This document shows positions 25,180 to 45,081 of a DNA stretch of 50,383 bases, piece after piece (position 1 is the stretch's first letter; each line of letters opens with the position of its first letter). The notes under the pieces were generated by a model that saw only the letters and a program-made list of their open reading frames with translations, did no database searches and was not told the origin of the DNA. A program made the position numbers and the translations under genes. This DNA is from Alphaproteobacteria bacterium (lineage in GTDB: Bacteria > Pseudomonadota > Alphaproteobacteria > TMED109): contig JAJDYI010000023.1 of assembly GCA_022825235.1 (NCBI GenBank), positions 1 to 50,383 of the forward strand, in the 5' to 3' direction.

Positions 25180-26757
25180 CTACAAATAGATGAGCGACAG
25201 CACCGAGCGCGCCCGGCTCATGGCTACGTAATGAGCCGTCACATTTTTCGTCGCCACGTTCGGTGCAGGAAGGTCCAGGACCATGACGGCCTCGTTCTCA
25301 AGGCCTTTGAATTCGTCAATCCTCGCGAATCCCACCTTGTCAACCGGCATGCTTCGCATGGAATACTCGTCCAAGCGCCGGACCCTGTTCGCCGCGCCGG
25401 GAGGCAAAAAGGCGGCAGAAGAATCGGCGAGATCGAAAGGCGACAGGATCGTGACGGAACCCGGCGCGAGTCCTCCCAAGTCCACGAGTTCGAAAATTTC
25501 GCGGGCGGCGCGCTCGGCGGATTTGCGCTGACTCGATGCGGTGTAACAGCGCACGGCGGGGCCTGCCCCAACCCCTCGTACCCCCAGGTCCGCATCGAGC
25601 TTGTCTTGAATCCATTCAAGGATGACCCGGGTGTTGCGGCAGTTGATTCGCAACGGCATCCGCACCGGGCACAACGATTCCAGGTAGCTCTTCGCGTTCC
25701 GCTCGAAGCGGGGCGTCAGCGACTGGTTGTTGAGATCATGGAACCAGCACCAGCGCCCCTCTTCGAGACCACCGGTGAGGATCTCGTCCAAGGTTTCGAG
25801 GAAGCCCGCCTCGAACAGGTCTTGGCCTTCGTCGACGATGAGCGCATCGAAGCGCTCCAGCCCGGCTCGGCGGCAATCAAGGCGAACGCCGTCCACAAGC
25901 GATACCGTGAGCCCGGGCATCGAAAGCCGCGAAGCGAGGAAATGCCGGAGCCAGGGAGATCGGCACACCAATGCAACCTGCAAGCCGTCCTCAGCCCAGC
26001 GCCGGGCCAGCCGCTCGGCGAGGAAGGTCTTCCCCGTGCCCGCACCACCGGCGCAGAGCACCCGCGGATTTGCCTCGGCCACATCCGCCATACGCATCTG
26101 GTCGTCGGTGAACTCGTCAACGCGGCGCCGAACGTCTTCCACCTGATCCAGTAGCGGCACATCCGCTTTGCTCGACGGTACGTCGATATTGGGGCGGAGG
26201 TACGCATGGAGCGCGCTCACCACCTCATCGTCAGACGAGCCGCTACTTCCTTCCCTCTCTCTCCAGTACGCGAACAGGCGGCGCAACCAGCCTTCGAGGT
26301 CGCGGCTTGCACGAACGTCGGCGACCATCGCCTGGTCCCACTCGGCCCCCTCGCTCCTGAACTCGCAGTCTGGGAACAGCACCCCGTAGCCGACGGTGAA
26401 CCGGTCAAGAACTCCGCGTGGGAGATTGGCGCGCAGGTCGTCCCTCAGTCCGCGGAGCGCCGTCTCCGCCTGCCGGAACGGACCCTCGTGGGATTGGACG
26501 GTTCGGCCGAAGCGATCCTCGTACTGCCACACGCCGCCATGACAGGCGACCCCTCCGCCCTTGACCTCGAGGACGTACAAACCCTCGGGGCCGCAGATGA
26601 CGAAGTCGATCTCCGGGAACCCCTTGCGGGGATGCCGGGTGGGCTTCAGCGAGTGACAGGCCACATAGCGATCGTCGAAGGCGCGGCGTAGCCGGTCGAA
26701 GATCCGTTTCTCCGCCGGGCTGCCGGTTTCGTAAGGAGAGCTTGGCACCATCTGCAT
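25180..26757 (-). CDS. NERD-domain SF1-like helicase/NTPase of the DrmAB operon
   Basis: This 525-residue protein begins with a NERD nuclease-related domain (about residues 10-120) that has PEIDFVICGPEGLYVLEVKGG, the usual D-x(n)-E-x-K acidic/basic set. An NTPase module follows: Walker A CAGGAGTGKTFLA near residue 245, Walker B IVDEGQDLF near 330, a Q-R-type region NCRNTR near 390 and a UvrD_C-like end HYVAMSRARSVLSL. It is the last gene of a five-gene minus-strand operon and starts 8 bases after the stop of the 531-residue gene. The role is probably to nick or translocate on DNA; the partners suggest antiphage defence. Confidence 0.82.
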   Translation of the reverse strand: MQMVPSSPYETGSPAEKRIFDRLRRAFDDRYVACHSLKPTRHPRKGFPEIDFVICGPEGLYVLEVKGGGVACHGGVWQYEDRFGRTVQSHEGPFRQAETALRGLRDDLRANLPRGVLDRFTVGYGVLFPDCEFRSEGAEWDQAMVADVRASRDLEGWLRRLFAYWREREGSSGSSDDEVVSALHAYLRPNIDVPSSKADVPLLDQVEDVRRRVDEFTDDQMRMADVAEANPRVLCAGGAGTGKTFLAERLARRWAEDGLQVALVCRSPWLRHFLASRLSMPGLTVSLVDGVRLDCRRAGLERFDALIVDEGQDLFEAGFLETLDEILTGGLEEGRWCWFHDLNNQSLTPRFERNAKSYLESLCPVRMPLRINCRNTRVILEWIQDKLDADLGVRGVGAGPAVRCYTASSQRKSAERAAREIFELVDLGGLAPGSVTILSPFDLADSSAAFLPPGAANRVRRLDEYSMRSMPVDKVGFARIDEFKGLENEAVMVLDLPAPNVATKNVTAHYVAMSRARSVLSLIYL

Positions 26758-26765
26758 GACGGTCC

Positions 26766-28361
26766 TCAGCCCTGGAGCTGCTTGCGAGCCCTTCCCTCGG
26801 CCTTGGGATCGAGCCGCGTCTCTGCAAGGAGCTCAAGGAACCGTCCCCGATCGACCTCGGGTTCGATCTTGGGATCGCCGGGCAGCTCGATGACCGTCGA
26901 GCCGCCCTTGACGGTGAGCCGGTACTCGCCCGGCCTGAGATTGATCCGGGTGTGAACACAGTCCCACTTCTGCGTTCTGGCGAGATCCAGCGCCGCCGAC
27001 TTCTGGCCCGCGCGCCAGACTGACCCGTCGCCGAGCAGCTCCCGCAGCGGACGGATTCGCGCCGGAGGGTCGCCGAGGTCGAGGCCCGTGGCCGCGATGC
27101 GATGAGACATTCGCGCCATGCGGTGGGAGACCGCAGCGGAGAGTCCCGGTTGGCCACGGAGACCAAGCGGCAGGCTCATCCACCCGTCGCGCACGCCGAA
27201 CAGGATCGCGGCGGCCAACCAGTCCGCCTCCCCCAGCCGGTCGCTCCGGTAGTCGAAGAGGTCGGCGCAGTCACGGCGAAGGAAGAACAATGTCAGGGCA
27301 TGCGCCAAGGCCGTATCGTGCCGGTCGAAGAGCTCGCTAGCGGTGGCTTCGGCGAGCCCGGTCAGGGATTCGAGGGTGTCCCGGAGCTTCCTGGCGCCCG
27401 CTTGCAATCGCGGATCGAGGATCGTCGCTGCTTCCGCAAGATGGTCCAGCAGCACGTTCTCCGTGCTTCCGGCACGGCCGCCCTCCCTCCATCTCACCAG
27501 ACACTCGACCGCTTCCCAGAAGAGCCGCGCCTGAAACCTGTTTTGAAGCGCGATCCGGTTTGACTCGGCGTCCACGGGCGGCGGGAGCGGCGCCGTACCC
27601 TCTCCAATCCAGGTTTCGAGCCCGGCGAGAATCGGATGGTCGCTGGCCGGCCCCTGCTCTCCGCCGGACGGATCGAATGCGCCCCGGCACGCATGAACTG
27701 CCCGCTCGCCGAGATTGCCGAAGAGGAGCAGCATCGCCATGACGCCGCCGGCGGCGAGCGGACGTTCCAAGGGGACGGCCCGTTCGGCGGGTCCTTCGCC
27801 GGTCCGCCACGGGATATCCGGGGCCTTGGTGAACACCAGCTTGCTCGATGCGCGCTTGAAATCGTCCAGCGGCACGTTGCTGAACTCCTTCGCGTCCCGT
27901 TCGCATGTCTTCTTGTCGTTTATCGATTGAAAGACAATTGACTCGATTCGGGACGTGGGGAGGGGTGCCGGCACGAGGAGCACCCGTTCCGTTCCGTCGA
28001 GCTGGTCCGGGAAGTGCAGCTCCCTTACCCCGCCTTCACCGATCGCGGTCAGCTTGCCCGACAATCCGGAGAGGTCGATGCGAACGACGACCGCCTTGAG
28101 GTGCCCCGCCTCGCTGGTGGACAACGCGATCGCATCCCTCGGCGGCTTGCCGAGAAACAAGGCGATCCAGCCCGGGAAGTATTCGAGGGTGTCCCGGTAG
28201 TATTTGTCCCCGAAGCTCGAGGGCGGTATCACGAGGCCCGCCGCGAGCATGTACATGAGGTTCAGGTGATTGGTGACGAGGAGCCCCGCATCAGGGACCT
28301 CCACCGGTGCAGACGCGGGCGCGGGGGTGTCTACTGTCGTAAACAGGTCTGCGGTGGCCAT
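26766..28361 (-). CDS. Unrecognised 531-residue protein in the DrmAB operon
   Basis: The start is ATG 28361, preceded by AAGGAG at 6 bases; an open frame extends to 28610 but that part is not protein-like. I recognise no family. The N-terminal 100 residues are the most motif-like: VTNHLNLMYMLAAGLVIPP, then FGDKYYRDTLEYFPGWIALF. The centre is helical and rich in Ala, Leu and Arg; the C-terminus has a predicted beta segment (EYRLTVKGGSTVIELPGDP). There are no membrane segments or evident nucleotide-binding loop. It sits between a UvrD-like NTPase and a NERD helicase, so it may be a specificity or effector subunit. Confidence 0.75.
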   Translation of the reverse strand: MATADLFTTVDTPAPASAPVEVPDAGLLVTNHLNLMYMLAAGLVIPPSSFGDKYYRDTLEYFPGWIALFLGKPPRDAIALSTSEAGHLKAVVVRIDLSGLSGKLTAIGEGGVRELHFPDQLDGTERVLLVPAPLPTSRIESIVFQSINDKKTCERDAKEFSNVPLDDFKRASSKLVFTKAPDIPWRTGEGPAERAVPLERPLAAGGVMAMLLLFGNLGERAVHACRGAFDPSGGEQGPASDHPILAGLETWIGEGTAPLPPPVDAESNRIALQNRFQARLFWEAVECLVRWREGGRAGSTENVLLDHLAEAATILDPRLQAGARKLRDTLESLTGLAEATASELFDRHDTALAHALTLFFLRRDCADLFDYRSDRLGEADWLAAAILFGVRDGWMSLPLGLRGQPGLSAAVSHRMARMSHRIAATGLDLGDPPARIRPLRELLGDGSVWRAGQKSAALDLARTQKWDCVHTRINLRPGEYRLTVKGGSTVIELPGDPKIEPEVDRGRFLELLAETRLDPKAEGRARKQLQG

Positions 28362-28444
28362 CTGGACTCCTTGAGTGGCTGTGAAATCTACGATTGAGTC
28401 AAGTTCTGCGGAGCCGACCAAACAAGCGAGGGCGGCTCGCCTGC

Positions 28445-28469
28445 GATCGAGGGCAAGACTCCCTCGATC
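28445..28469. promoter_or_regulatory. Strong hairpin between operon genes
   Basis: GATCGAGGG and CCCTCGATC form a perfect 9-bp stem with a 7-base loop in the only long gap (181 bases) of the DrmAB operon. It may attenuate transcription or stabilise an mRNA end before the 531-residue protein and NERD genes. Confidence 0.45.
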
Positions 28470-28527
28470 CTGGGAGAATCTGCCGGTCGACCAAGCGCCC
28501 GAGAATGCACCACATGCTTCGTCGGAC

Positions 28528-28542
28528 CGAGGCGAAGCCTCG
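28528..28542 (-). terminator. Hairpin abutting the stop of the UvrD-like gene
   Basis: CGAGGC-GAA-GCCTCG is a 6-bp stem with a 3-base loop that starts at the base after the TAG stop. No U-run follows, so termination is probably partial at most. Confidence 0.35.
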
Positions 28543-29706
28543 CTACAGCTCCCTGCGCCGCAGCACATCCTCGCTCCTTGGAAGAATGCGCTCGATCTCC
28601 CGGCGTCCACCCCGCTTCATGAACAGGAACACCCGCTCCCTCGCACGTGCAACCATGACGTAGAAGAGCCGTTTCGCAACGTCTGGATCTTTCCGCCAGA
28701 CGAAGTGCTCGTCGATGTCGGCGAGGACCGCCGTGTCGAACTCAAGCCCCTTGCAGGCCTGCGCGTTGATGACCAGGATGCCGCCCTCGTCGAACGCGAT
28801 GTCGGGACGGTTATCCCCGAAGAACGTCTCGATGGTGGGCCGCGGGTTGTCGAGTTCCGCCTCTACGGTTCGAAGCGCGTCCAGATAACGCTCCCTGACT
28901 GAATTCTTGGGGGCGATGACCCCGATGAGCTGGCGTGGGTCCCGGTCGGCAAGACGAAGGATGCCCCGCGCGACCGCGTCCAGATTAGCCTCGTCGTAGC
29001 AGTACAGAAGCGGAACGGTCCCCGGAACGCGGTCCGGAATCTCGGGCGGCGGGCTCGCCGGATCGCCCGTATAGAATTCCCGCGCAAGCCGCGCCACCTG
29101 ATAGCGATTGCGATAGTTCTGCTTGAGTTCGATTACCTCGCTGGCTTCGAGGCCCAGACAGTCCTGGATTTCTTTCCGACTGCTGTTCGCCTCCGTGATC
29201 TGCTGGTTCTGGTCGGCGACGACGAAGAACCGGTCGAATCCGAGACCGATGAGCGCGCCGTAAAACATTGGCGGCATGTCCTGGCCCTCATCGATCACGA
29301 GGAACGGCCGCCGCCCGTCTTCGCCGCCGGGTAACGCCTGGACGGCTTCCTCTATGCCCGCCCAATCGATCTCCTGATAGCCATTGTCGTTGGGCTTCCG
29401 CACCGGAACCGGCTGGCCTGCCACCTTCCGGAACACGCCTCGAAACCAACTGTCCCACGTGCGGCCGACGAGACCGCCGCCAAATAACTGGCCGCTCGCC
29501 CGATCGAGGAGGCGATTGAAGACCAAGAAGAGATAATCATCCTGCTCTCGCTGGTGCCGCCGGGCGCGGAGGAGCGCGAGCACGGACTTCCCCGTTCCCG
29601 GGCCGCCGATGATGAGATGCTGCCCTTCCTTCGGCAGCGCGCGCACCCGTTCCTGCTCCTTGCTCAACTCCTCGATGCGCGGCAGCTCGAGCTTGCGCTT
29701 CGCCAT
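28543..29706 (-). CDS. UvrD/Rep-like NTPase of the DrmAB operon
   Basis: The protein has 387 residues from ATG 29706, which overlaps the drmB stop (ATGA). Walker A is GGPGTGKSVLALL near residue 33, Walker B VIDEGQDMPP near 140, then VVADQNQQI (motif III-like), LKQNYRN near 195, and a C-terminal motif V/VI region with ACKGLEFDTAVL and FYVMVARARERV. The set is that of SF1 UvrD-like proteins without accessory domains. It is probably a DNA translocase or sensor that works with DrmA/DrmB; the role is inferred from the operon only. Confidence 0.83.
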   Translation of the reverse strand: MAKRKLELPRIEELSKEQERVRALPKEGQHLIIGGPGTGKSVLALLRARRHQREQDDYLFLVFNRLLDRASGQLFGGGLVGRTWDSWFRGVFRKVAGQPVPVRKPNDNGYQEIDWAGIEEAVQALPGGEDGRRPFLVIDEGQDMPPMFYGALIGLGFDRFFVVADQNQQITEANSSRKEIQDCLGLEASEVIELKQNYRNRYQVARLAREFYTGDPASPPPEIPDRVPGTVPLLYCYDEANLDAVARGILRLADRDPRQLIGVIAPKNSVRERYLDALRTVEAELDNPRPTIETFFGDNRPDIAFDEGGILVINAQACKGLEFDTAVLADIDEHFVWRKDPDVAKRLFYVMVARARERVFLFMKRGGRREIERILPRSEDVLRRREL

Positions 29707-31568
29707 CAGCCGGCATCCTCCACAAAGTCCGCCAACGATGGGATGTCGGGTGGGGCACCCTTGACGAAGACCCGATCGAGGAGAACGTTGCCGTAGGCAC
29801 AGCTCGGTTCCGGTACGAGGGCGCAGGCGTGACAGGCGGCCCGGTTGAGGAGGTCCGGACCGTGCCCTTCCTGCTCCGCGCAGACCGGATCGAGCGAACA
29901 CCAAGAGGCCGCCTCGAACGCCCCGGTCAACAGGCGGAGAAACCGGTCGGGCTTTGCCAGCTCCATCAGGCCACCGAGGGAGCCCTCCTCGTCGGCAACC
30001 GCCACGTAGATGAGAATCCCCGCCATGGGTTCCTTGCCAGTTGCGCAGTAGATGCGTTCTTTCAGCGACGCGGCGGGATATCCCGCCTTGGCCTCGATCT
30101 CCTGGATCATCAAATGGGCAAGCGTATGGCAGAGCAGGAAACGGGGCGTCACGTCCACATCGAACTCGGGGATGCCCTGACCCGCACGATGGACATACCG
30201 CTGCGCAAATGCGTCTGCGCGTTCACGGAGTGCATCGCCGGACTCCCAACGTTGCAGCACGTCCTCGTCGAGGGTGAAGAAGAGGCCCTCGCCGTAAAGC
30301 TCAAGGGCGGGAAACCAGCCGCTCTCACCGGTGATATCCGGCGGCGCCCACCGACCGCCCGCGCGCCGAAACCCGGTGAGCACCATGATCTCCTTCAGTC
30401 GGTTGAGCCCAACGAGGCGCGAGACGGCGGTCGCGGTGCGCCGGAGATGCCCATCTTCCAGCGCACGGCGGCGTGTGATCCAGTTGTGCGTGTGGTGCTC
30501 GGTGACGAAGTCCTCTTCTTCTCCGAGATGGGGAATCTCCTCGATCAGCGCCCGGTACTCGTCGAGGAGAAGATCTTCCGAGGTGACCGCTCGTCCGTAG
30601 AGGGGGTAGTCGCGGTCGATCTCCGCGATCGCCTCTTCGATGTCGCCGCGCGTGCAGCGATATTCGCTGGCGAGCTGTGCGATGACGGCCCGCCGTGCAA
30701 GCGGGCTTCGAGCGCTCTGAATCCGCTGCTGGTTCCTGGAGCTACCGTACAGACGGTCGAGGACTGTTCCTCGCCGGATCCGTGATTCGGGCGGAATGAC
30801 GAGCGCGGTGCGCGTCACGGGAGAGTGCACCCGAACATCGTTGACCCCGATCAGCCAGCCCGGGCCTTCCGGAGCTTGCGCCGGAGGCTCTCGCATCCAG
30901 GGTTGCTGCCAGGTGCGCGGCGGAAACGGAAACCGGGGCAACGCGCCGGATCGCAGGCTTTCGTTCGACCCGCAGCGAATGCAGCGAAGCAACCGGCCCG
31001 TCCCCGTGTCGGTCAGTTGCAGGTAGGGTTCCGTCCAGTCGTGACTGCATTGACGCTGCTCCGGGTTCCGGGATCTTCCGTGGGCGAGATCGTGCCAAGG
31101 AACATCGGCGAGATAGCCATCTTCGTGAACGAGGACCCAGGGCACTTGCTCGAGCTTGCCGCCGCAGTTGTTGCATTCGCCGGCGCTTCCTCCGCTCGCG
31201 CCCTCCTCTGCTTCCCGGCGGGCCTCGCCCCCTGCTCGCCGGTTTCGCCACGGCGCCGGATGTAGCAAGCCACAACTCGAGTTCAGGCAGCGCATCCAGG
31301 TCGGGAACCGGAGCGCGGGGACCCACCCGACGACCGTCCCGTTCCGCTTCGCCGAACGAGGTGGGGCGCAGAGTGCCTGTTCGATTCCAAGCGCGCTCCG
31401 CACCCGCTCCACATAGCGAATCTGCCGGTCCATCGGATCGCTCCCCGGCCGGTCCCAGGTGCGAATGTCCTGCACCACCATCAAGCTGTCCGGACCGCGC
31501 ACGACAGCGCCTACCGCACAGTCGCGGAGGAGGTGCGAGAGCCGGACAGGAACGTACTCTTCAGCCAC
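29706..31568 (-). CDS. drmB: DISARM-type protein DrmB (DUF1998)
   Basis: This 620-residue protein has the features of DrmB: the N-terminal VRLSHLLRDCAVGAVVRGP, Cys pairs for zinc (CLNSSCG, CNNCG, CIRCG, between about residues 113 and 220), and a C-terminal DUF1998 domain with FLLCHTLAHLMIQEIEAKAG, GILIYVAVADEEGSLGGL and a final Cys-rich CSLDPVC...ACHACALVPE. In DISARM, DrmA and DrmB form the core complex that loads on DNA ends of incoming phage genomes. It lies 56 bases downstream of drmA. Confidence 0.87.
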   Translation of the reverse strand: MAEEYVPVRLSHLLRDCAVGAVVRGPDSLMVVQDIRTWDRPGSDPMDRQIRYVERVRSALGIEQALCAPPRSAKRNGTVVGWVPALRFPTWMRCLNSSCGLLHPAPWRNRRAGGEARREAEEGASGGSAGECNNCGGKLEQVPWVLVHEDGYLADVPWHDLAHGRSRNPEQRQCSHDWTEPYLQLTDTGTGRLLRCIRCGSNESLRSGALPRFPFPPRTWQQPWMREPPAQAPEGPGWLIGVNDVRVHSPVTRTALVIPPESRIRRGTVLDRLYGSSRNQQRIQSARSPLARRAVIAQLASEYRCTRGDIEEAIAEIDRDYPLYGRAVTSEDLLLDEYRALIEEIPHLGEEEDFVTEHHTHNWITRRRALEDGHLRRTATAVSRLVGLNRLKEIMVLTGFRRAGGRWAPPDITGESGWFPALELYGEGLFFTLDEDVLQRWESGDALRERADAFAQRYVHRAGQGIPEFDVDVTPRFLLCHTLAHLMIQEIEAKAGYPAASLKERIYCATGKEPMAGILIYVAVADEEGSLGGLMELAKPDRFLRLLTGAFEAASWCSLDPVCAEQEGHGPDLLNRAACHACALVPEPSCAYGNVLLDRVFVKGAPPDIPSLADFVEDAG

Positions 31569-31624
31569 GGATCTTCGCTGTCCTCCCGTTCACCGCCGGA
31601 GCTTCGCACTGCCGCATCGCCGGG

Positions 31625-34600
31625 TCATCGACCGGGCGGCCAATCATGGACCTTGAGCGACCCGGTACCTTCCACGTTCCGCATGGAGTGCAGGGTCGCC
31701 CACAGACCGGGGCGCGACTCTCCGTGTGTGTAGAGCAGCCGGTCGGCGGCCTTGTCGCGCTCCGGTGCCTCGTAGTTGAGTTGCCGGCTCCCCTCCTCGC
31801 AACGCCGCCCCTCGTCGTGCCACTCTTTGGCGAGACGGTCGACGTGGGCGGCGACGTCGGGGCCCAGACCCATCCCGTCTGCGGCACGCTCGCAGCGCCG
31901 CTTGAGCTCGGCGACGACCGTTCGGATTGCCGGTGAACTCCGGTCGAAATTTCCCGCCGACTTGTTGCTTCCCAGCCCGGGGCAGGCATGCCGGATCGCA
32001 ATGACGAGGGCGGCGTGGAGGGCGCGTGACCGAACCTGGTGGGTAAAGGGGGTCACGCTGCTCGGCTCCACGAAACGGTAGAACGATTCGTGGTAAGGAC
32101 GAAAGCTCTCGTAGTGGGACAGGCTCCGGGCCTGGTGGCGGTAGTAGTTGGCGAAGACCAGACCCGGAACGTCGGCTCGGCCGACCCGGCTCGTCGCCTG
32201 GATGTACTCCGCAGTGGTGAGAGGCTGGCCGTTGACGATCATGAGCGCGAGGCGTGCGACATCAAGGCCGACGGACACCATGTTCGTCGCCAGCACCGCG
32301 TCGAGACAGTTCTCGTCGTCCTGAGAAAGCGCGAGCCGCAGGAACGTCTCCGCATTCTCCTCGGGGGTGGGGTGACTCGTGAGCTGGGCGATGCGCGTGT
32401 TCAAGAACCGTTTGGCGGTCTCGTCCGATTCGCTGCCGGGGGCGTCCGATCCGCCGCCGGCTGCAGTGTCGCGCTCCTCCTCCCGCTCGCCGGCGAGCCA
32501 TCGCCCGAAGTCGCGTACGTCGGTCAAGAAGGCATTGTGGCTGTTGCCGACCCCCTTCAGGCTGCCGTGATACACCACCTGCGTCCACCACGCATCGAGC
32601 AGCGCGTCCCGGTCTGCGTCGCCCTCGAACACCGCGCCCGGGGCAGCGAGCAGCGCGGCGGCGAGCGGTGCGAAACAATGCTGCTGATCGAGCATGGGGG
32701 CGAGGTAACCGACGTAGCGCCGCCCTGGTCGCTCCTGATCCGTCCGCGCAAACCAGGAGTCGTCGTGGGACAGCCCAGGCGGCGGGAACACGGCAAGATC
32801 CCGCGCATAGAGGCGCCGCACCTGCTCCTCCGCCATGCGGATGGTCGCGGTGGACGCGACGTACTTGGGGCGAACGCCCCGGCGGACAAGCAGGGTCTCA
32901 AGTCCTGCCTCGTACAGCCCGGCGACCGAGCCCAGGGGGCCGGTGATGAGGTGCAGCTCGTCCTGGATGACGAGTTCCGGCGGACGCGATCCGGTGCCGA
33001 CACCGAAGAAGGCGCCGGTCCGTTCTTCCCAAGCGACTCGCGCGAACTTGTCGATAGTGCCGATGAGGAGTGATGGCGGGTGCTGGTACAGCGCCTCGTC
33101 CACCACGTTGCAGGGGAGCGGCCGCTCGTCCGCGCCGAATTCGCACCCCTCATCGACGCAGTGGAAGTGAAAATCATCTTCCCCGGCACGGTAGCCGCGA
33201 TCGGCATCGAACGATGACCCGCACCATGGACATCGTTCCAGCAGCATCCCGTATCGCGCCTCGGCATTGCCGTTGCGGATCTCCTCAACGAGTTCCCTGG
33301 CCTGATGGATGCCGTTGGGGCTGATCTCGCGGCCGACCCAGATGCCGATGTCGATGGGGGCTTCGCCGAGCCGGTCGGTGTCTCGCCGGCGGATCAGCTC
33401 CAGGGCGCCCACCATGCGCGCGGCGCGTTCGAACTGCTGGCGGGTCAGCAGGCGCAGCGTGTAGCGCATGAACGCAACGGTTCCACCTCCGGTGTCGGGG
33501 TACTTGAGGCGCCGCCAGACAATGAGGAACGCGATGAGGCCGAGGTACGCCTCGGTCTTGCCGCCGCCGGTGGGAAACCAGATGAGATCGAGCACGTCCC
33601 GATAATCGTCGTCTTCGCGAATCGCGGACTCCATGGTCGTGAGCAGGAAGGCCAACTGGAAAGGCCGCCACCGGTGGCCGCCAGCCCTGGTCTCCCTGCC
33701 GGCAACGCGGTCGATCTGGCCCATCTGGTCGAGCATCGCCCGGTTCGCGAGCCGGAACGACTCGGCCGCGAGCGGGTCGGTCCGCAGCATCTCGATGCAC
33801 CCGCGCATCCGCTCAAGGGCGGTCTGCATCCGATCGCAGATTCGATCTGCGGTAGCCCGTTCACCCGGTGTCGGAAGCGCGGCGGCGGCTCGCCGCTGCT
33901 CCGCGACCCAGTCGGAGTAACCGTCGGCGAACCGGGCAAGATCGTCCGCCATCGGTGAATCGGCGAGCCTGGCAAGGTCGAAAACCGATTCGTCGCCACC
34001 CGTGTCGACGGTCATCATCGGCACCTCGGCCTCGGGCATGAAGTCCGACCAGACTCGCGCCGGACGGCCCGGCCCCACCGCCCAGTCCGCAGCCGCGCCG
34101 TGGCCGACGGCATAGATGCGCTGCTCCCGGTACTGGAGTTCGAGTTCCTGCTCTTCGTCTGTGAGCAGGCTCGGATCAACGCGTGGATACTCGACGAGTT
34201 CACCGCTCTCGACCACACATTCAAGCCGCGCCTCAAACAGCGACTTCCCGACCCGGTCACGGGTCCGGCTGTACGACGGTGCGTCTGGGTCCAACACTCC
34301 GCGATTGCACAGGGTGATGGTGAGAATGAGGCCTTTTCCGTGCGATCGTGCGCGAACGTCTATTCCGGCCCGCCCGTCCCAGAACGGCTCCCCAGAAATG
34401 CCGCGACCCGCGCCCGCCGACCATGTGACGGTGTGCTCCGGAAGCGGGGTTCGGACGTACTCTCGAAGCACGAACTTGCCCCCCTCGCCACGCTCCCCGG
34501 TGCCCCTATAAGCGGCTGCGGAGGCGGTAATCGCAAGACGCGCATTGCCGCGAACGTAACAAGAGAAACCGACCGCCGACGGTGGCACGTACCGGCGGCG

Positions 34601-34861
34601 GCGGGCCGGCCGTGCAAGTGGCGCCTCCTCGGATCCGTCATTCCCGAACGGTGCGTCTTCAAGCTCGTCGACGAGGGCAGGATCAGCCTCTTCCTGGCCG
34701 GAGGAAGCAGGATCGACACCGGACACGTCGGGATCGATTGGATGCAGCACACCGATCGGATATCGATCCAAAGGGGATACCCGGAGACTCCCCTCGTGGG
34801 CCGGGCCAATGAGCTGGCGGCGCGACCAATTGACGAGGCGTTTTCTGGTTTCGACGTACAC
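31625..34861 (-). CDS. drmA: DISARM-type helicase DrmA
   Basis: This 1078-residue SF2 helicase matches DrmA in layout. It begins VETRKRLVNWSRRQLIGPA, a typical DrmA start (GTG codon). The helicase core has LIWFPTGGGKTEAYLG near residue 438, IQDELHLITGPLGS (DELH box) near 630, and in the second lobe NMVSVGLDVARLALM, then TAEYIQATSRVGRADVPG. A cysteine cluster CPWCGSSF lies before the DELH box. In the known systems DrmA works with DrmB. Here it opens an operon drmA-drmB-UvrD-like-unknown-NERD that has no methyltransferase. Confidence 0.88.
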   Translation of the reverse strand: MYVETRKRLVNWSRRQLIGPAHEGSLRVSPLDRYPIGVLHPIDPDVSGVDPASSGQEEADPALVDELEDAPFGNDGSEEAPLARPARRRRYVPPSAVGFSCYVRGNARLAITASAAAYRGTGERGEGGKFVLREYVRTPLPEHTVTWSAGAGRGISGEPFWDGRAGIDVRARSHGKGLILTITLCNRGVLDPDAPSYSRTRDRVGKSLFEARLECVVESGELVEYPRVDPSLLTDEEQELELQYREQRIYAVGHGAAADWAVGPGRPARVWSDFMPEAEVPMMTVDTGGDESVFDLARLADSPMADDLARFADGYSDWVAEQRRAAAALPTPGERATADRICDRMQTALERMRGCIEMLRTDPLAAESFRLANRAMLDQMGQIDRVAGRETRAGGHRWRPFQLAFLLTTMESAIREDDDYRDVLDLIWFPTGGGKTEAYLGLIAFLIVWRRLKYPDTGGGTVAFMRYTLRLLTRQQFERAARMVGALELIRRRDTDRLGEAPIDIGIWVGREISPNGIHQARELVEEIRNGNAEARYGMLLERCPWCGSSFDADRGYRAGEDDFHFHCVDEGCEFGADERPLPCNVVDEALYQHPPSLLIGTIDKFARVAWEERTGAFFGVGTGSRPPELVIQDELHLITGPLGSVAGLYEAGLETLLVRRGVRPKYVASTATIRMAEEQVRRLYARDLAVFPPPGLSHDDSWFARTDQERPGRRYVGYLAPMLDQQHCFAPLAAALLAAPGAVFEGDADRDALLDAWWTQVVYHGSLKGVGNSHNAFLTDVRDFGRWLAGEREEERDTAAGGGSDAPGSESDETAKRFLNTRIAQLTSHPTPEENAETFLRLALSQDDENCLDAVLATNMVSVGLDVARLALMIVNGQPLTTAEYIQATSRVGRADVPGLVFANYYRHQARSLSHYESFRPYHESFYRFVEPSSVTPFTHQVRSRALHAALVIAIRHACPGLGSNKSAGNFDRSSPAIRTVVAELKRRCERAADGMGLGPDVAAHVDRLAKEWHDEGRRCEEGSRQLNYEAPERDKAADRLLYTHGESRPGLWATLHSMRNVEGTGSLKVHDWPPGR

Positions 34862-35396: not shown

Positions 35397-38300
35397 TCAA
35401 CCTGCGACCACTTTCCCCGCCTGATAGAGCCAGCCGGGCATGGGGCGTTCCAACTCCCACAGTATCTTCATAGGCCGTTCCGATTCATGACTTCGGTAAT
35501 GGGCGCGGCCAAGGCAGTGGTATGGAAGCGGTACGCCCCGGCCATCTCTTTTGCGTTCACGGACGAACAGGATGACATTCGTGCCACGGACCGGTTGTTC
35601 GATGTAGCGGCGTCCGGCTGACGTGCCCGGTGATGCGGTGTTCTGCGACTCCCAGTGAAACAGAGTCCGGGAGATCGGGTAATCGGCGTAGCGAGTCGTC
35701 GGAGAGTAGTCCTTGTCCGACTTCTCCAGCGTTACGAACAGCAGATCAGTTTGAGTGGCCTTGTTCCAAAGAACCCCGGCCTGCGGAACAACCAATGCAC
35801 CACGCTTATCAGTGTGACCATGTGCGGCAGTGATCTCCCCAAGGGTGTAAGTGGCATGGCTCGCCAAGGGAACTTCGCCAGCAGGATCAAGTGGCTGCGA
35901 AACCGTGCGGATGCGATCGGCGAGAATTTCCAAGAGGTCGACGATCTCGCGACACAAATCCGGAGACCCACGGACCCTTTCCAGGATCTGCTCTGCCTCA
36001 TTGATCGGCTGACGACGGCCACCCAGAACAGCAAACAACATGAGGCCCAGGCGACGCTTGCGGTCGGAAATCCCTGAGAAGCGGTCAGAATGATCCGCCT
36101 CAAACATGTCCCGCCACGCATCGATCCGCTCGCGATCGTCCACATGGATCAGCCGACCGATCGCCTGGAGGAGAGATTCGTCCGCAACACTCTGCTCGAA
36201 GCCTGCGCGTCGGCGAAGCTCGGTAAAGCAGTGTCCCGATCCGGGTCTTGCGTAAATTTCATCGAGCTCGACGCCGGCGTCGCGCATGAAGCTACCGAGG
36301 CGTGTTTCCGGACCGAGAGCACGCAAGTCACCGGCAAGACGTCTACGGGCGTTTTGGACCGCCTCTCTCAGATTGCTGAGCACCGTCGCCTTGGCAATAC
36401 GGTCGAGCTTGAGCGCGCATCCCGGCGGGAGTAGCGGGAAGTCCGCCTCAACGGCGCGCCTGACCTGATGGCGAGTGCCCCCCAACAGGGCTCGAAAACG
36501 CACATCGTACCGGTACTCGCGCCGAACCTGCCCCACGAAATCAAGGACGGTCAGGACCCGCTTGCCTTCAGCCCAACGCAATCCTCTTCCCAGCTGCTGG
36601 AGAAACACTGTGGCGCTCTCAGTCGGTCGCAGCATGAGCACGGTGTCGACTTCAGGAAGATCAACACCCTCGTTGAAGAGATCGACCGCGAAAACGGCGC
36701 GAAGTTCGCCCCGCCGCAGTCTCGCGAGCGCGGATCGCCGATCGTCCCGCGGGGTGTTGGCGTCGAGCGCCACCGCCGGGTAGCCAAAATTCGTGAACTG
36801 CCTCGCCATGAAGTGGGCGTGATTGACGCCCGCACAGAATCCCAGCGCCCGCATTTCGTACGGGTTCGTCACGAATTCCTCGACAGCCTGGCGGATCCGA
36901 ACAGCTCGAACGTGATCGCCCGTAAACACATTGTCGAGCTCACCAGGCACATATCGTCCGCGCTCGAAACGGACCGCCGAGAGATCGGTCGCGTCGTTCA
37001 CTCCGAAATAGTGAAACGGACAGAGCAATCCCTGATCGAGGGCATCCCAAAGCCGGGACTCCGACGCGATGCGGCCGTCGAACCACTGCAGCACCGACTG
37101 GCCGTCGGCGCGCTCGGGCGTGGCGGTGAGCCCGAGGAGGATTTTCGGCGTCAAACGCGACAGCAAGCGCTCGTAGCTCGCAGCCGCCGCATGATGAAAC
37201 TCGTCCACGATGACCACATCGAAATCGTCCGGTTCGATCTCGTCGATCCGGTTGGCAAGAGACTGCACCGAAGCAAATACGTGGCGGCCGGCGCGTGGAC
37301 GCTCGCCGCCGACCAGCAGTTCGCCAAACCCCGGCTCACGCAGCACGAGCTGAAAGACCTGCTGGCTTTGACGGAGTATCTCTTCACGGTGCGCGACAAA
37401 GAGCAAGGAACCGCCCGCACGCTGGTCACGCAGCTGCTTGAAATCGAATGCTGCGATCCAGGTCTTGCCGGTACCGGTCGCCGCGACCACGAGGTTGCGG
37501 TAGTATCCGCGCCGGCGCTCCGCTTCTAGTGCCTCCAACACGACAGCCTGGTGTGGCTTCGCCGCGACATCGACCAGCAGAGACAGCCAATTGCTGTCGT
37601 CCGATCCGGCATCACCGCGCTGTTTCGAGAGCGCGCGGTCGAGCCGCTCACTATCACGCTGGGGCGCATAGTCCTCGAATTCGGGTTCTTGCCAGTACTG
37701 GTCGAAGGTCGCTGCGAACCGCTCAATCACCTCAGGGTTTTCGGCCGCGCTCACGCGCACGTTCCATTCGAGACCGTCGACCTGCGCCGCGTGGGTGAGA
37801 TTTGACGAACCGATATAGGCGGTGTGCAGACCGCTGTACCGGTGGAACAGCCACGCCTTCGCATGAAGCCGGGTCCGCGCGATTTCATAGGAGACCTTCA
37901 CGTGGGCGCCGAGTTCGACAAGTGCGTCCAGCGCACGGCGTTCGGTCGAGCCGGTATAGACGCTCGCGATCACGCGCACTTGTGCGCCCTCTCGTACTCG
38001 TTCTGCAAGCTCGGAACGGAACAGCCGCAACCCCGAGTGACGCACGAACGCGCAAAGGAGATCGATCCGATCAGCGCTTGGGATCTCCCGTGCAATCTCG
38101 CTCGCGATCTGGACGTCACGGCGTCCATTGACGAGCAGCCCGGTCCGACGAAGCGAGAGCGTCGGGCGAGGGACTGCCGATTGTGTTTCGCCCAATACCC
38201 GGTGTTCGACAGCTTCCAGGAGCAGGCGCGCAGCGTCTGCGACTCGGTCATCAACCACCGCACCATGTTCTTCGAGCACTTCTACCAGTCGATTGGCCAA

Positions 38301-38522
38301 GGCGACTTGGCTGGCTGACTGTGAGCCCTCTTCGCCCGGCATCCCCTCGAGTGCGCGTCGCAGAAGGTGATAAACATGGCGGGCCAAGAACTCTGGCCGG
38401 ACGGTTGCGTCGGCCGCGACGACATCCACCCACCAGCCTTCCGCGGCACGGGCATCAATTTCTGTCTCCAGAGCGGAGGTCAGCAGATCTTCGTAAAGCC
38501 CGGAATGCAGTCGACGCGTCAT
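35397..38522 (-). CDS. PLD-domain SF2 helicase with C-terminal DUF3427
   Basis: Read from ATG 38522 (1041 residues; ATG 38588 is in frame but less family-like). After about 140 residues comes a phospholipase-D-like nuclease domain with an HxK motif TRLHAKAWLF and IGSSNLTHAAQ near residues 216-240. Next is a DEAD/DEAH helicase: ATGTGKTWIAA near 350, VDEFHHAAA near 441, QQLGRGLRWAEGK near 645. The C-terminal third resembles DUF3427. PLD-helicase-DUF3427 proteins occur in defence islands as single-gene systems or partners of restriction systems. It is upstream of drmA on the same strand and might supply the PLD activity that DrmC gives to classical DISARM. Confidence 0.85.
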   Translation of the reverse strand: MTRRLHSGLYEDLLTSALETEIDARAAEGWWVDVVAADATVRPEFLARHVYHLLRRALEGMPGEEGSQSASQVALANRLVEVLEEHGAVVDDRVADAARLLLEAVEHRVLGETQSAVPRPTLSLRRTGLLVNGRRDVQIASEIAREIPSADRIDLLCAFVRHSGLRLFRSELAERVREGAQVRVIASVYTGSTERRALDALVELGAHVKVSYEIARTRLHAKAWLFHRYSGLHTAYIGSSNLTHAAQVDGLEWNVRVSAAENPEVIERFAATFDQYWQEPEFEDYAPQRDSERLDRALSKQRGDAGSDDSNWLSLLVDVAAKPHQAVVLEALEAERRRGYYRNLVVAATGTGKTWIAAFDFKQLRDQRAGGSLLFVAHREEILRQSQQVFQLVLREPGFGELLVGGERPRAGRHVFASVQSLANRIDEIEPDDFDVVIVDEFHHAAAASYERLLSRLTPKILLGLTATPERADGQSVLQWFDGRIASESRLWDALDQGLLCPFHYFGVNDATDLSAVRFERGRYVPGELDNVFTGDHVRAVRIRQAVEEFVTNPYEMRALGFCAGVNHAHFMARQFTNFGYPAVALDANTPRDDRRSALARLRRGELRAVFAVDLFNEGVDLPEVDTVLMLRPTESATVFLQQLGRGLRWAEGKRVLTVLDFVGQVRREYRYDVRFRALLGGTRHQVRRAVEADFPLLPPGCALKLDRIAKATVLSNLREAVQNARRRLAGDLRALGPETRLGSFMRDAGVELDEIYARPGSGHCFTELRRRAGFEQSVADESLLQAIGRLIHVDDRERIDAWRDMFEADHSDRFSGISDRKRRLGLMLFAVLGGRRQPINEAEQILERVRGSPDLCREIVDLLEILADRIRTVSQPLDPAGEVPLASHATYTLGEITAAHGHTDKRGALVVPQAGVLWNKATQTDLLFVTLEKSDKDYSPTTRYADYPISRTLFHWESQNTASPGTSAGRRYIEQPVRGTNVILFVRERKRDGRGVPLPYHCLGRAHYRSHESERPMKILWELERPMPGWLYQAGKVVAG

Positions 38523-38766
38523 GACCGATCCAAACGGAAGAATATGGTTAGCCGCGCTCGTGTCAGCATGAGGTTCGCAAGTATTCATTCATGGCCTGCG
38601 TTCTCCCCTAGGGTTCACCGAGCAGCCGATCAACGACATCACACATGTTCCTTGTCCGCGAGTTTCCAATATTGTCGTGCTCGCTATTTCGTATCCTATT
38701 TGCGTTGACGCTGCTACGTCAGCGATTGCAATACAATGATGCGAAAACTGTCCGAGCTCGTTGGAA
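38523..38766. promoter_or_regulatory. Divergent promoter region
   Basis: This interval lies between the divergent PLD helicase and methyltransferase-HNH genes and must hold both promoters. It is AT-richer than the genes. I see no convincing core elements. Confidence 0.4.
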
Positions 38767-40494
38767 ATGGCGGATCCGATCGCTTGGTACGATGCGAACG
38801 CTGAGACAGCCGTAGCGCAATACGAAGGACTGACTTCTGATACGGTCCACGGCTGGCTTCGTGACTTGCTGCCCAAGGGCTCGGCGACGGTCTTGGACAT
38901 TGGTGCGGGGAGTGGCCGAGATGCTGCCTGGCTGTCAGCCAAGGGCTACGACGTCGTGGCGGTTGAACCTTCCGCATCCATGCGGGCCGCCGGAGCGGCC
39001 ATACATGCGCAGGCTCCCATCCGATGGATCGATGACCGTCTGCCGGCACTCGCCACCGTTTCCAAATCCGGTCTGTCGTTCGATCTGATCCTGCTGAGCG
39101 CCGTCTGGATGCATCTGCCTCCGGGTGATCGGCCGCGAGCATTTCGCAAGATCATCAACCTGCTCAAACCGGGCGGCCTGCTGGCGATCGCCCTGCGCGA
39201 CGGACCCGCGGACCTTGTAAGAGGTATCCACCCCGTCGTGCCGGAAGAGCTTGAAGGGCTGGCCCGCGATCACGGCGCCTTTGTCGAGAGGCATGCAGAG
39301 GCAGAGGATCACCTGGGGCGTCCGGGCATCCGCTGGCTCCAGGTGGCGATCCGATTGCCCGACGACGGAACCGGGGCACTTCCGCTGCTGCGACATGTCA
39401 TCCTGAATGATGACAAGAGCTCAACGTACAAGTTGGCACTTCTCCGCACGCTTTGCCGGCTGGCTGACGGTGCTGCAGGGTCCACCCGTGATCAGGACGA
39501 CGAATTCGTCGCCGTGCCACTTGGGCTTGTGGCTCTCACGTGGATTCGGCTGTTCAAACCTCTGTTATCCGCGAATCTCCCGCAAAACCCTTCCAATATT
39601 GGCCTGCAACGTCTCGGGTTCGTGAGGAACGCTTATCGAAGGCTTACCGACGTCTCGCACCTTGACCTGCGCGTTGGCGTCAGGTTCTCGGGCGAACCCG
39701 GCACGACCCTTCACCAGGCGCTGAAAGACGCCGCAAACACCATTGCGCGGATGCCCGCGACTTACATCACGTATCCGAATGGAGGGCCGGTATTTCCAGT
39801 CCGGAAGCCCGCGAGGACGCGTCGCCCCTCCCTGATCACATTGGATCAGGCGTACCTGTTTCAGTTCGGCGAAATGCTGGTCCCTAGGCACCTTTGGAGT
39901 GCGTTGCGGCGATTTGGCGCATGGGTCGAACCGGCCCTCGTCGCCGAGTGGAGCCGTCTCATCAAGTCCTACGCGTTACGCCAAGATGTCCGAGTGGACG
40001 ATGCAACCATTGCGGCTTCGATGACGTGGGACGAGCCCACGCGCGATGTGGGCTTGGCGAGAGAGCGGGCGCTCACCATGTTGGCCGACGGCGACTTGCG
40101 TTGCGTTTGGAGCGGCCGAAACCTGGATCGACGATCCTTGGACATTGATCATTGCTTCCCCTGGACAGCCTGGACCTGCGGCGATCTCTGGAACTTGATG
40201 CCGGCACATCGAACGGTAAACCAGCGCGAAAAAAGAGCGCTCCTGCCAACGGATCGCCTTCTTCAGTTCGCCCGGGACAGGGTTCTTGGCTGGTGGGAAT
40301 CAGCGTATGTCAAGGACCTGCCGATGGTTTCGGAACGATTCTGGCTTGAGGCGACGTCGAGTCTTCCGACCGTGGATACCGACAAGCAACGGCTAAGCGA
40401 TGTCTTCGATGCCGTATGTTTTCAGCGAATTCGTTTGAAGCATGACCAGCAAGTGCCGGAATGGGCCGGTGAGCGACACATTCAAGTCGACTGA
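38767..40494 (+). CDS. Class I SAM methyltransferase fused to an HNH endonuclease
   Basis: This 575-residue protein starts at ATG 38767. Residues 30-190 are a Rossmann methyltransferase: SAM-binding VLDIGAGSGRDAAWLSAKGY, then VAVEPSASM, and LLSAVWMHLPP with FRKIINLLKPGGLLAIALRD, a layout of Methyltransf_11/25 type rather than a DNA amino-methyltransferase (no NPPY or PCQ motif). Residues 200-420 form a linker domain. The C-terminus has an HNH nuclease: CVWSGRNL, DIDHCFPWTAW, DLWNLMPAHRTVNQREK. Such fusions are uncommon. It could modify a small molecule, tRNA or a host protein and cut DNA; the sequence does not show the substrate. It is divergent from the PLD helicase. Confidence 0.82.
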   Translation: MADPIAWYDANAETAVAQYEGLTSDTVHGWLRDLLPKGSATVLDIGAGSGRDAAWLSAKGYDVVAVEPSASMRAAGAAIHAQAPIRWIDDRLPALATVSKSGLSFDLILLSAVWMHLPPGDRPRAFRKIINLLKPGGLLAIALRDGPADLVRGIHPVVPEELEGLARDHGAFVERHAEAEDHLGRPGIRWLQVAIRLPDDGTGALPLLRHVILNDDKSSTYKLALLRTLCRLADGAAGSTRDQDDEFVAVPLGLVALTWIRLFKPLLSANLPQNPSNIGLQRLGFVRNAYRRLTDVSHLDLRVGVRFSGEPGTTLHQALKDAANTIARMPATYITYPNGGPVFPVRKPARTRRPSLITLDQAYLFQFGEMLVPRHLWSALRRFGAWVEPALVAEWSRLIKSYALRQDVRVDDATIAASMTWDEPTRDVGLARERALTMLADGDLRCVWSGRNLDRRSLDIDHCFPWTAWTCGDLWNLMPAHRTVNQREKRALLPTDRLLQFARDRVLGWWESAYVKDLPMVSERFWLEATSSLPTVDTDKQRLSDVFDAVCFQRIRLKHDQQVPEWAGERHIQVD

Positions 40495-42926: not shown

Positions 42927-43287
42927 GACACCATCGGTAGGTTCCTGGTAGGAGTGACGCTACGGTCTTCCCCTAGGCGAACGTGCTGGGCCGGATCCTG
43001 TTTGCGCGCGGCATGTCGCGGATTGCATGGGACCCCGTACGAATCCTATGCGCTTCGGAGTCGGGGCCAAGGGTAGACTGCGAAACATGCGACCCGTGCA
43101 CTCATCTCTTGTGCTGAGACGAAGGCGACCGCATACGCGCTTTCGAATCTAAAGTGCCACGGTGATGCGACGATCCGGCAAACTTGGAGACCATCACTTT
43201 GACACCATTAGGGGAAATTTAATCCGGCACTGACAACGTAGGCCGATCGTCTAGAAAACAATGTCCTGAACGGGTCAGATATTGCGA
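42927..43287. other. Intergenic stretch ahead of the AT-rich cassette
   Basis: No gene is supported. Base composition changes from GC-rich to AT-richer in this interval, near 43150-43260, which may mark the left boundary of a transferred cassette. Confidence 0.4.
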
Positions 43288-43316
43288 TTGACAAGGCTCC
43301 ATTACATCATTATTGT
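43288..43316 (+). promoter_or_regulatory. Sigma-70-like promoter of the DUF6932 cassette
   Basis: TTGACA at 43288-43293 and TATTGT at 43311-43316 are separated by 17 bases, a near-consensus core promoter. Transcription would start at about 43323, which coincides with the ATG at 43324, so the mRNA may be leaderless. Confidence 0.5.
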
Positions 43317-43323
43317 TGTAAGA

Positions 43324-43803
43324 ATGATTCCTGAGCTAATCACTCTTCCTGGGTCACCGTGGCCGGTATTGCCCGAAGGGATACATCCGGCAGATCTGGA
43401 GGCAATTGCGATTAGCTTTGCTACAAACCGCTGGAGACGGACACTTTTCGATGGTCTATTTGATGGAGTCCGATGTCTGTTTTCGGCTGGCTGCCTCCGA
43501 ATCTTTCTCGATGGCAGCTACGTTACCGGAAAACCGAAACCTGGAGACTTCGACGCATGTTGGGATCCTACTGGCGTAGACGTCAATAAGCTGGATCCCG
43601 TTTTTCGGGACTTTACCAATGCACGAGCTGCCCAAAAGAAGCGGTTTGGAGGTGAGTTCTTTCCCTCATCGACGACTAGCCGGAATGCCGGCAAAAGTTT
43701 CATCGACCTTTTCCAAGTAGATCGATTCTCTGGGCTCAAGAAAGGAATCCTGGTCGTGGAACTGTCCACGGATCGGTTGCTACAACAAAAAGCTGCACCA
43801 TGA
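43324..43803 (+). CDS. DUF6932-like nucleotidyltransferase-fold protein
   Basis: The protein has 159 residues from ATG 43324 (an in-frame TTG at 43282 adds 14). The core CLRIFLDGSYVTGKPKPGDF followed by DACWDP near residue 60-80 has the G-S-x(n)-D-x-D pattern of nucleotidyltransferase folds and matches DUF6932. The end carries FIDLFQVDRFSGLKKGIL, also family-like. Its stop overlaps the start of the XRE/ImmA gene (ATGA). A nucleotidyltransferase coupled to an XRE/ImmA protein resembles a toxin-antitoxin or regulatory pair. Base composition is AT-richer than the rest of the window. Confidence 0.75.
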   Translation: MIPELITLPGSPWPVLPEGIHPADLEAIAISFATNRWRRTLFDGLFDGVRCLFSAGCLRIFLDGSYVTGKPKPGDFDACWDPTGVDVNKLDPVFRDFTNARAAQKKRFGGEFFPSSTTSRNAGKSFIDLFQVDRFSGLKKGILVVELSTDRLLQQKAAP

Positions 43804-45077: not shown

Positions 45078-45081
45078 CAAC

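Follow-up and report, generated by a model that had tools for sequence, protein, structure and literature searches.

A DISARM-related drmA-drmB-UvrD gene set with a protein of predicted ADP-ribosyltransferase and ADP-ribosylhydrolase folds

How would a DISARM-like operon tell the DNA of an invader from that of its host if it brought no methyltransferase of its own? In DISARM, methylation is regarded as one of the safeguards against self-attack, and the classical forms combine drmA, drmB and drmC with drmMI and drmD (class 1) or with drmMII and drmE (class 2). The question is raised by a contig of Alphaproteobacteria bacterium (TMED109; assembly GCA_022825235.1, contig JAJDYI010000023.1), of which we analyzed positions 1-50,383 of the forward strand, a stretch of 50,383 nucleotides that we call the window. 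At 25180-34861 of the window, drmA and drmB are followed by a gene for a UvrD-like helicase, a gene for a protein of 531 residues and a gene for a helicase with a NERD domain. The first four of these form a recurrent set that, within the literature searched, is a previously undescribed DISARM-related variant. Its 531-residue protein is predicted to combine an ADP-ribosyltransferase (ART) fold with an ADP-ribosylhydrolase (ARH) fold. The genes are as follows:

31625-34861, minus strand: drmA, DISARM-family superfamily 2 (YprA-like) helicase, 1078 residues (PADLOC, NCBIfam, PDB)
29706-31568, minus strand: drmB, DUF1998/MZB partner of DrmA, 620 residues (NCBIfam, PDB)
28543-29706, minus strand: short UvrD/HelD/GajB-like superfamily 1 (SF1) helicase, 387 residues, ATG at 29706 (Pfam, HelD model, PDB profile)
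26766-28361, minus strand: core protein of 531 residues (ATG start) with predicted ART-ARH fold (AlphaFold2 model, Foldseek, VIA-align)
25180-26757, minus strand: NERD nuclease-like domain with SF1 helicase, 525 residues, optional fifth gene (Pfam)

A first-pass annotation, made from the letters of the DNA, had described these five genes as one minus-strand unit with 56 bases between drmA and drmB and 8 bases between the 531-residue and NERD genes. Our coordinates agree with all of this, but not with the ATGA overlap that it gave for drmB and the UvrD-like gene: the junction reads TGATG, an overlap of 1 base. The UvrD-like gene and the 531-residue gene are separated by 181 bases in the window, and the corresponding open reading frames (ORFs) overlap in a second copy of the operon in the same genome. 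The proposed relation to DISARM also stands, as both DrmA and DrmB match DISARM models and DISARM structures. DrmA matches the PADLOC DrmA model (E 1.8e-195), NCBIfam NF038325 (E 1.9e-239; 797.8 bits, below the model cut-off of 950) and the DrmA of PDB 7s9v (E 5.8e-119), and its TGGG and DEL motifs are kept in 25/25 and 27/27 of the rows covering the place. DrmB exceeds the cut-off of NCBIfam NF038324 (DrmB_fam; 304.6 bits, cut-off 240) and matches the DrmB of 7s9v at E 9e-54. At one locus (L034, 3817-8781) the two are a natural fusion, a single ORF of 1654 residues. PADLOC and NCBIfam matches likewise bear out two distinct SF1 helicases, a GajB/HelD-like protein and a NERD-helicase. The former matches Pfam UvrD_C_2 and the HelD model (E 5.7e-9), as well as PcrA and HelD in the PDB by profile; its helicase motifs, by their customary names (Walker A K, DEGQ, N-R, KG-E, last R), are kept in 33 or 34 of 34 rows. 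The latter matches Pfam NERD (E 2.1e-9), its nearest PADLOC model being RTasNERD-Hel. NERD nucleases have catalytic residues in an E/D...ExK pattern, and here E49, D51, E64 and K66 are present in 17/17 rows, with the motor motifs kept as well. In a study of Serratia DISARM, DrmAB binds single-stranded DNA (ssDNA) and 5' overhangs, and V1296 of DrmA contacts a DNA base and is proposed to be a methylation sensor (PMC9142583). This residue aligns with V1063 of the window DrmA, and the position is Val in 27/29 rows.

The operon is more than a peculiarity of a single genome, since the same order is found in unrelated genomes and a second copy exists in the same genome. When 84,980 species genomes were scanned with an alignment of the 531-residue protein, 29 loci emerged. 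This is a lower bound, because the scan depends on two short peptides and misses relatives that have lost both. The UvrD-like gene adjoins the 531-residue gene in all 29 loci, two of which begin within 200 bases of the UvrD-like gene, and the order drmA-drmB-UvrD-531-residue gene on one strand is found in 27/27 loci whose contig reaches far enough. By record titles, the hosts are Alpha-, Gamma- and Deltaproteobacteria, Acidobacteria, Desulfobacteraceae and Rhodothermales, including three cultured strains of Chromatiaceae; among the cultured hosts is Thiorhodococcus mannitoliphagus DSM 18266 (locus L032). The second operon of the source genome lies on another contig (C18, 19026-28566; L005/L006), has all five genes in the same order and is 62-69% identical; a genome of the same genus (G364) has a third complete set, 92-96% identical to that of the window. 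Among 385 genomes of the class, the set occurs only in the source genome and in that one of its genus; a match in G217 (E 6.6e-4) was rejected as spurious, as it lies antisense within a region of tricarboxylic acid cycle genes.

The five-gene unit as first proposed holds for four of its members in these unrelated hosts, but not for the fifth. The NERD gene is present in 14/29 loci, not found in 12/29 and not scorable in three (L018, L026, L031); we therefore rejected it as a core gene and regard it as an optional accessory. It lies downstream in 13 loci and upstream and diverged in one (L027), and its presence requires at least four changes on the DrmA tree (24 rows). Some copies are damaged: drmA is split into two ORFs in L025 and drmB in L027. 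In L022 and L029 the end of the contig truncates the copy. In L033 (1745-12625), a decayed copy, inserted ORFs interrupt drmB and the 531-residue gene; the same record, OY282353.1, holds a second copy (L035) with all five genes.

The absence of a methyltransferase and of drmC from the operon, as claimed at first, is upheld: neither matched among the five proteins (PADLOC, Pfam). The neighborhoods gave no methyltransferase either: ORFs called by a simple procedure, in flanks that are short in some loci, were screened for DNA methyltransferase motifs, and none of the 245 flanking ORFs of the 29 loci has [NDS]PP[YFW] or a simple C5 motif. The gene set is related to DISARM, yet a DISARM methyltransferase was not found in its neighborhood. 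In the window, a gene of S-adenosylmethionine-dependent methyltransferase fold lies outside the operon on the opposite strand (38761-40494) and is closest to small-molecule methyltransferase models and to mad2 of MADS. As for the other components, none of the five proteins matches DrmC in PADLOC, and seven of the 245 flanking ORFs have one HxK motif, none of them DrmC-like by eye; the Serratia study describes DrmC as frequently absent from DISARM too (PMC9142583). A DrmC model search of the source genome was unspecific, matching a 515-residue ORF and 11/14 controls. The PADLOC models of DrmD and DrmE matched none of the five proteins, and DrmE as the origin of the 531-residue protein was set aside: a possible DrmE of 801 residues from L. 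plantarum, a gene that PADLOC missed too, gave no match. Just upstream of the operon (35397-38588, minus strand) is a PLD-ResIII-DUF3427 gene that matches a type IV restriction model strongly and DrmC weakly (E 1.6e-4). We rejected it as a sixth component, as it was found at 1/29 loci, the one of the same genus. At that locus (G364) it is followed by cysteine desulfurase-like and PAPS (3'-phosphoadenosine 5'-phosphosulfate) reductase-like genes, an arrangement that by eye recalls phosphorothioation systems.

A tree of 40 DrmA proteins (quick search, no bootstrap, with one very long branch, L073) places the 25 DrmA proteins that accompany the 531-residue protein in one group (Shimodaira-Hasegawa-like approximate likelihood ratio test support 100). 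It includes 23/27 of the drmA loci; L022, L025, L029 and L033 were dropped as fragments shorter than 700 residues. The neighbors of the group are DrmA proteins of Deinococcus, Streptomyces and Photobacterium, and it stands apart from the seven rows labelled classical, a label taken from annotation that fits L044 and L080 loosely. Hosts from different phyla are intermixed in the tree.

Relatives of the set are carried by plasmids. On a Deinococcus gobiensis plasmid, genes for NERD, DrmA, DrmB, UvrD and a hypothetical protein stand in a row. The hypothetical protein is a distant counterpart of the 531-residue protein: it matches the profile with E 4.4e-10 by hmmsearch, in a set of 24 proteins, and with E 3e-9 and a probability of 96% by hhalign. 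Photobacterium plasmids have drmA-drmB-UvrD-hypothetical, where hhalign gives no significant match of the hypothetical protein to the profile (E 0.011, probability 3.9%). Neither counterpart matches a Pfam family at E 1. On a Streptomyces plasmid (L041, 3126-6947), a protein of 1273 residues with a sigma-70 domain directly precedes drmA-drmB-UvrD, and nothing is annotated where the 531-residue gene would stand. A direct search for the 531-residue protein in phages, plasmids and viral contigs gave no match. Two Rhizobium plasmids (L045, L079) and an Azospirillum plasmid (L046, 3457-13692) have UvrD-drmA-drmB-NERD. In Azospirillum a gene annotated as DarT comes next in the same orientation, and in L045 a cytosine methyltransferase is located further upstream. 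These sets resemble ours in joining DrmAB to an SF1 helicase and NERD with a methyltransferase not among these genes, but they belong to another DrmA branch, have a larger UvrD ahead of drmA and have no annotated gene in the place of the 531-residue gene.

What, then, is the 531-residue protein? By sequence it is nearly silent. Searched as a longer ORF of 614 residues, it has no match at E 0.001 in PADLOC or Pfam; nor does it match anything in NCBIfam and PHROGs at E 1 or among PDB sequences at E 10, and its profile finds a single chance match in the PDB (E 1.3). With the limit raised to E 1, the window protein reaches Pfam 2CompART at E 0.081 (13.6 bits, cut-off 27). This model matches 12 of 30 members weakly, at best with E 8.3e-4, and the unrelated UBA_4 reaches E 1.3e-3 in two members; in 299 genomes, controls included, the 2CompART model found no match. 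The AlphaFold2 model, built from 29 sequences (A4), has a pLDDT (predicted local distance difference test) of 86.9 and a pTM (predicted template modeling score) of 0.87, and a second model, of a Thiorhodococcus homolog that is 39% identical (22 sequences, A5), has a pLDDT of 84. The predicted domains are a DarT-like ART domain (about 19-178), an ARH/DraG-like helical domain (about 197-425) and a small C-terminal domain (about 430-531). Four Foldseek matches of the window model have E <=0.001, all of them Thermus DarT (best 7omx, E 1.7e-4, prob 1.00), and Thermus DarT is also all that falls under 0.001 for the Thiorhodococcus model (E 1.3e-4). VIA-align superimposes DarT with Z 10.6 on the window model (152 residues aligned, root mean square deviation (rmsd) 3.3, model residues 19-178) and with Z 10.4 on the Thiorhodococcus model (152, rmsd 3.5). 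For the second domain its lists are headed by the ARH family and contain further ARH/DraG-type entries; ARH3 has Z 13.0 (212 aligned, rmsd 3.6, model residues 198-424) and Z 13.8 (219, rmsd 3.8), respectively. A viral fold library gave a best E of 0.01.

The prediction for the 531-residue protein is thus a DarT-like ADP-ribosyltransferase fold with an ADP-ribosylhydrolase-like fold C-terminal to it, visible in models and not in sequence profiles. The strongest argument for it is that adjacent domains, in two models, point to the transferase and the hydrolase of one chemistry. Several results speak the other way. Foldseek gives ARH entries no better than E 0.03 with either model, a Z of 13 is near the level that helical domains may reach by chance, and a mitoribosomal chain, not an ARH entry, reaches VIA-align Z 10.4 and 10.6. 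Comparison of the protein by hhalign with DarT and ARH alignments is not significant (among the DarT rows, L056, a macrodomain frame, L060 and L062 were left out, and the N-terminal parts of L057 and L058 were trimmed). The Pfam DarT and ADP_ribosyl_GH (PF03747) models are silent in the source genome, both copies included, and the DarT model has no match in 28 genomes of the family.

Whether such a protein would be an enzyme was judged by the residues expected of DarT, with its HxTH motif, and of ARH proteins, with their metal-site motifs. DarT requires an ART glutamate, E152 in DarT1 and E160 in DarT2 (PMC11543638). The inferred position in our protein, placed by a short ungapped, non-significant hhalign match extended by one residue, is V127; the residue there is Val, Leu, Gly, Ala or Cys in 30/30 sequences and Glu in 0/30. 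The first DarT His, located via HxTHxxNL, falls on residue 28, which is His in 0/30. The first ARH metal motif has no counterpart seen by eye; E/D378-x-D380 resembles the second, D-x-D, motif, with D380 being D in 29/30, and the place of the DxDT threonine is W, R, L, C or Y. The N-terminal region is nevertheless under constraint, because eight residues (T30, N31, L33, N34, L35, D57, W65 and N162) are invariant in 30/30. Since the DarT catalytic Glu is apparently absent, the protein is likely a pseudoenzyme that has lost the known catalytic set, to judge from these alignments. Against this counts E125, which stands two positions ahead of V127 and is E or D in 22/30, so a shifted catalytic acid, and with it a re-made active site, is possible.

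Our tentative answer to the opening question, which we put at a little less than an even chance, is that the set is a methyltransferase-free, DISARM-related system against invaders, in which a DrmA-DrmB-UvrD core acts with the ART-ARH-fold protein and recognizes its target by structure. Engagement with ssDNA is suggested by the binding of Serratia DrmAB, by the retained V1063 and by the conserved helicase and NERD motifs. For defense, ligand, order of steps and discrimination we infer the following scheme. By analogy with Serratia DISARM, DrmAB would load where invading or replicating DNA exposes ssDNA or 5' overhangs. The ART-ARH-fold protein would serve as a non-catalytic binding or sensor subunit, with ssDNA, nicotinamide adenine dinucleotide (NAD+) and ADP-ribose as candidate ligands, and would license DrmAB and the UvrD-like motor. 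The DNA would then be unwound and blocked, and cut where the NERD protein is present. Discrimination between self and non-self would rest on DNA structure and not on a mark made by the operon.

The first-pass annotation had also raised a different mark in place of methylation. The predicted ADP-ribosylation fold gives this idea somewhat more substance, but the expected catalytic residues are apparently missing. In one form of it, which we consider rather unlikely, ADP-ribose chemistry has taken the place of methylation in a DISARM-type machine. The ART-ARH-fold protein would read the state of DNA ends with respect to ADP-ribose or NAD+ (or, if its site has been remodelled, write or erase it) and thereby decide what DrmAB targets; it might, for instance, sense DNA to which phage or host enzymes have attached ADP-ribose. 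A stronger form, in our view quite doubtful, makes it an active, remodelled protein whose single chain holds both a transferase and a hydrolase and would put ADP-ribose on DNA and remove it again, in place of DISARM methylation as effector or self mark. One of its two adjacent domains resembles DarT, an enzyme acting on ssDNA, and the other resembles ARH/DraG, hydrolases that belong to the same chemistry; the acidic E125 lends the proposal added weight, the E378-x-D380 motif fits it, and a DarT gene does follow the Azospirillum set. However, no sequence has Glu at the inferred catalytic position or His at the first DarT His place, and neither the first ARH metal motif nor the DxDT threonine is recognizable.

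There are two further explanations. By eye, several loci are flanked by housekeeping genes; this weakens the defense reading and makes a role in DNA repair or genome maintenance, as for YprA/MrfAB, possible, and the coexistence of two copies in two genomes (that of the window and that of OY282353.1) agrees with it. We judge it unlikely: DrmA and DrmB match DISARM models and structures, the distribution within the class is patchy (two of 385 genomes), phyla are mixed in the DrmA tree, relatives are plasmid-borne and L033 has decayed. The set might instead be ordinary DISARM with its methyltransferase and drmC elsewhere in the genome. The methyltransferase search covered neighborhoods alone, a PLD-containing type IV restriction-like gene stands just upstream in the window, and on the D. 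gobiensis plasmid a cytosine methyltransferase is annotated about 2.7 kilobases before NERD, on the other strand behind a transposase, which also tells against a methyltransferase-free system. This seems highly unlikely, given that the flanking ORFs of 29 loci lack a methyltransferase motif, the PLD gene is confined to one other locus, the UvrD-like and 531-residue genes are constant instead, and the DrmA proteins form a separate group.

How does the set compare with known systems? In mainly non-subscription literature on DISARM, NERD/UvrD, DarT/ADP-ribosylation, ART-hydrolase systems and DUF1998, we found no description of it, whether as a named DISARM class or otherwise. With DISARM classes 1 and 2 it shares homologous, adjacent DrmA and DrmB and the base-contacting Val, but here no methyltransferase, drmC or drmD is recognized, UvrD-like and ART-ARH-fold genes are constant, and DrmA forms its own group. 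The predicted N-terminal fold is like DarT of DarTG and DarT-NADAR, and the second domain may be like the ARH/DraG side of ART-ARH pairs such as DraT-DraG and Tre1-Tri1. In contrast to these, the protein has both domains in one chain, apparently lacks the expected catalytic residues, has no macrodomain gene beside it among the five and goes together with DrmAB and UvrD. The helicases of the operon resemble GajB of Gabija, HelD and RTasNERD-Hel (DRT) in their SF1 modules and in the NERD-helicase architecture, but the partners differ, and GajA and reverse transcriptase are not among the five genes. Beside DISARM, Dpd and Druantia, a survey of the YprA family defines ARMADA, BRIGADE and TALON (PMC12458937). 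By this survey, ARMADA, BRIGADE, TALON and Druantia share a YprA-type helicase with our set, ARMADA II has a GajB-like helicase and TALON a NERD nuclease, but ARMADA has BrxHII and a PglX-like methyltransferase, and TALON has TPR-CSD and TBP (PMC12458937). Neither TPR-CSD nor TBP matched among our five proteins, the flanks not having been searched for either. An ART-ARH-fold protein is not described for ARMADA, BRIGADE, TALON or Druantia in the text available (PMC12458937).

The operon of the window lies among defense-like genes, which speaks for a role in defense. At 43282-46155, on the plus strand, there are PADLOC matches to PDC-M63A and to B and C of PD-Lambda-2, in a stretch of lower G+C. 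At 5056-8334, on the minus strand, a helicase of 1092 residues matches PDC-M23B at 1374 bits; its match to HamB of Hachiman is weaker.

Since DrmAB recurs here with no methyltransferase found in the neighborhood and with the base-contacting Val retained, the need of DrmAB for any mark becomes directly testable. If the models are right, the set would also tie DarT-like ADP-ribosylation folds to YprA-type defense helicases, through a protein that matches no named family above the cut-offs in the libraries searched.

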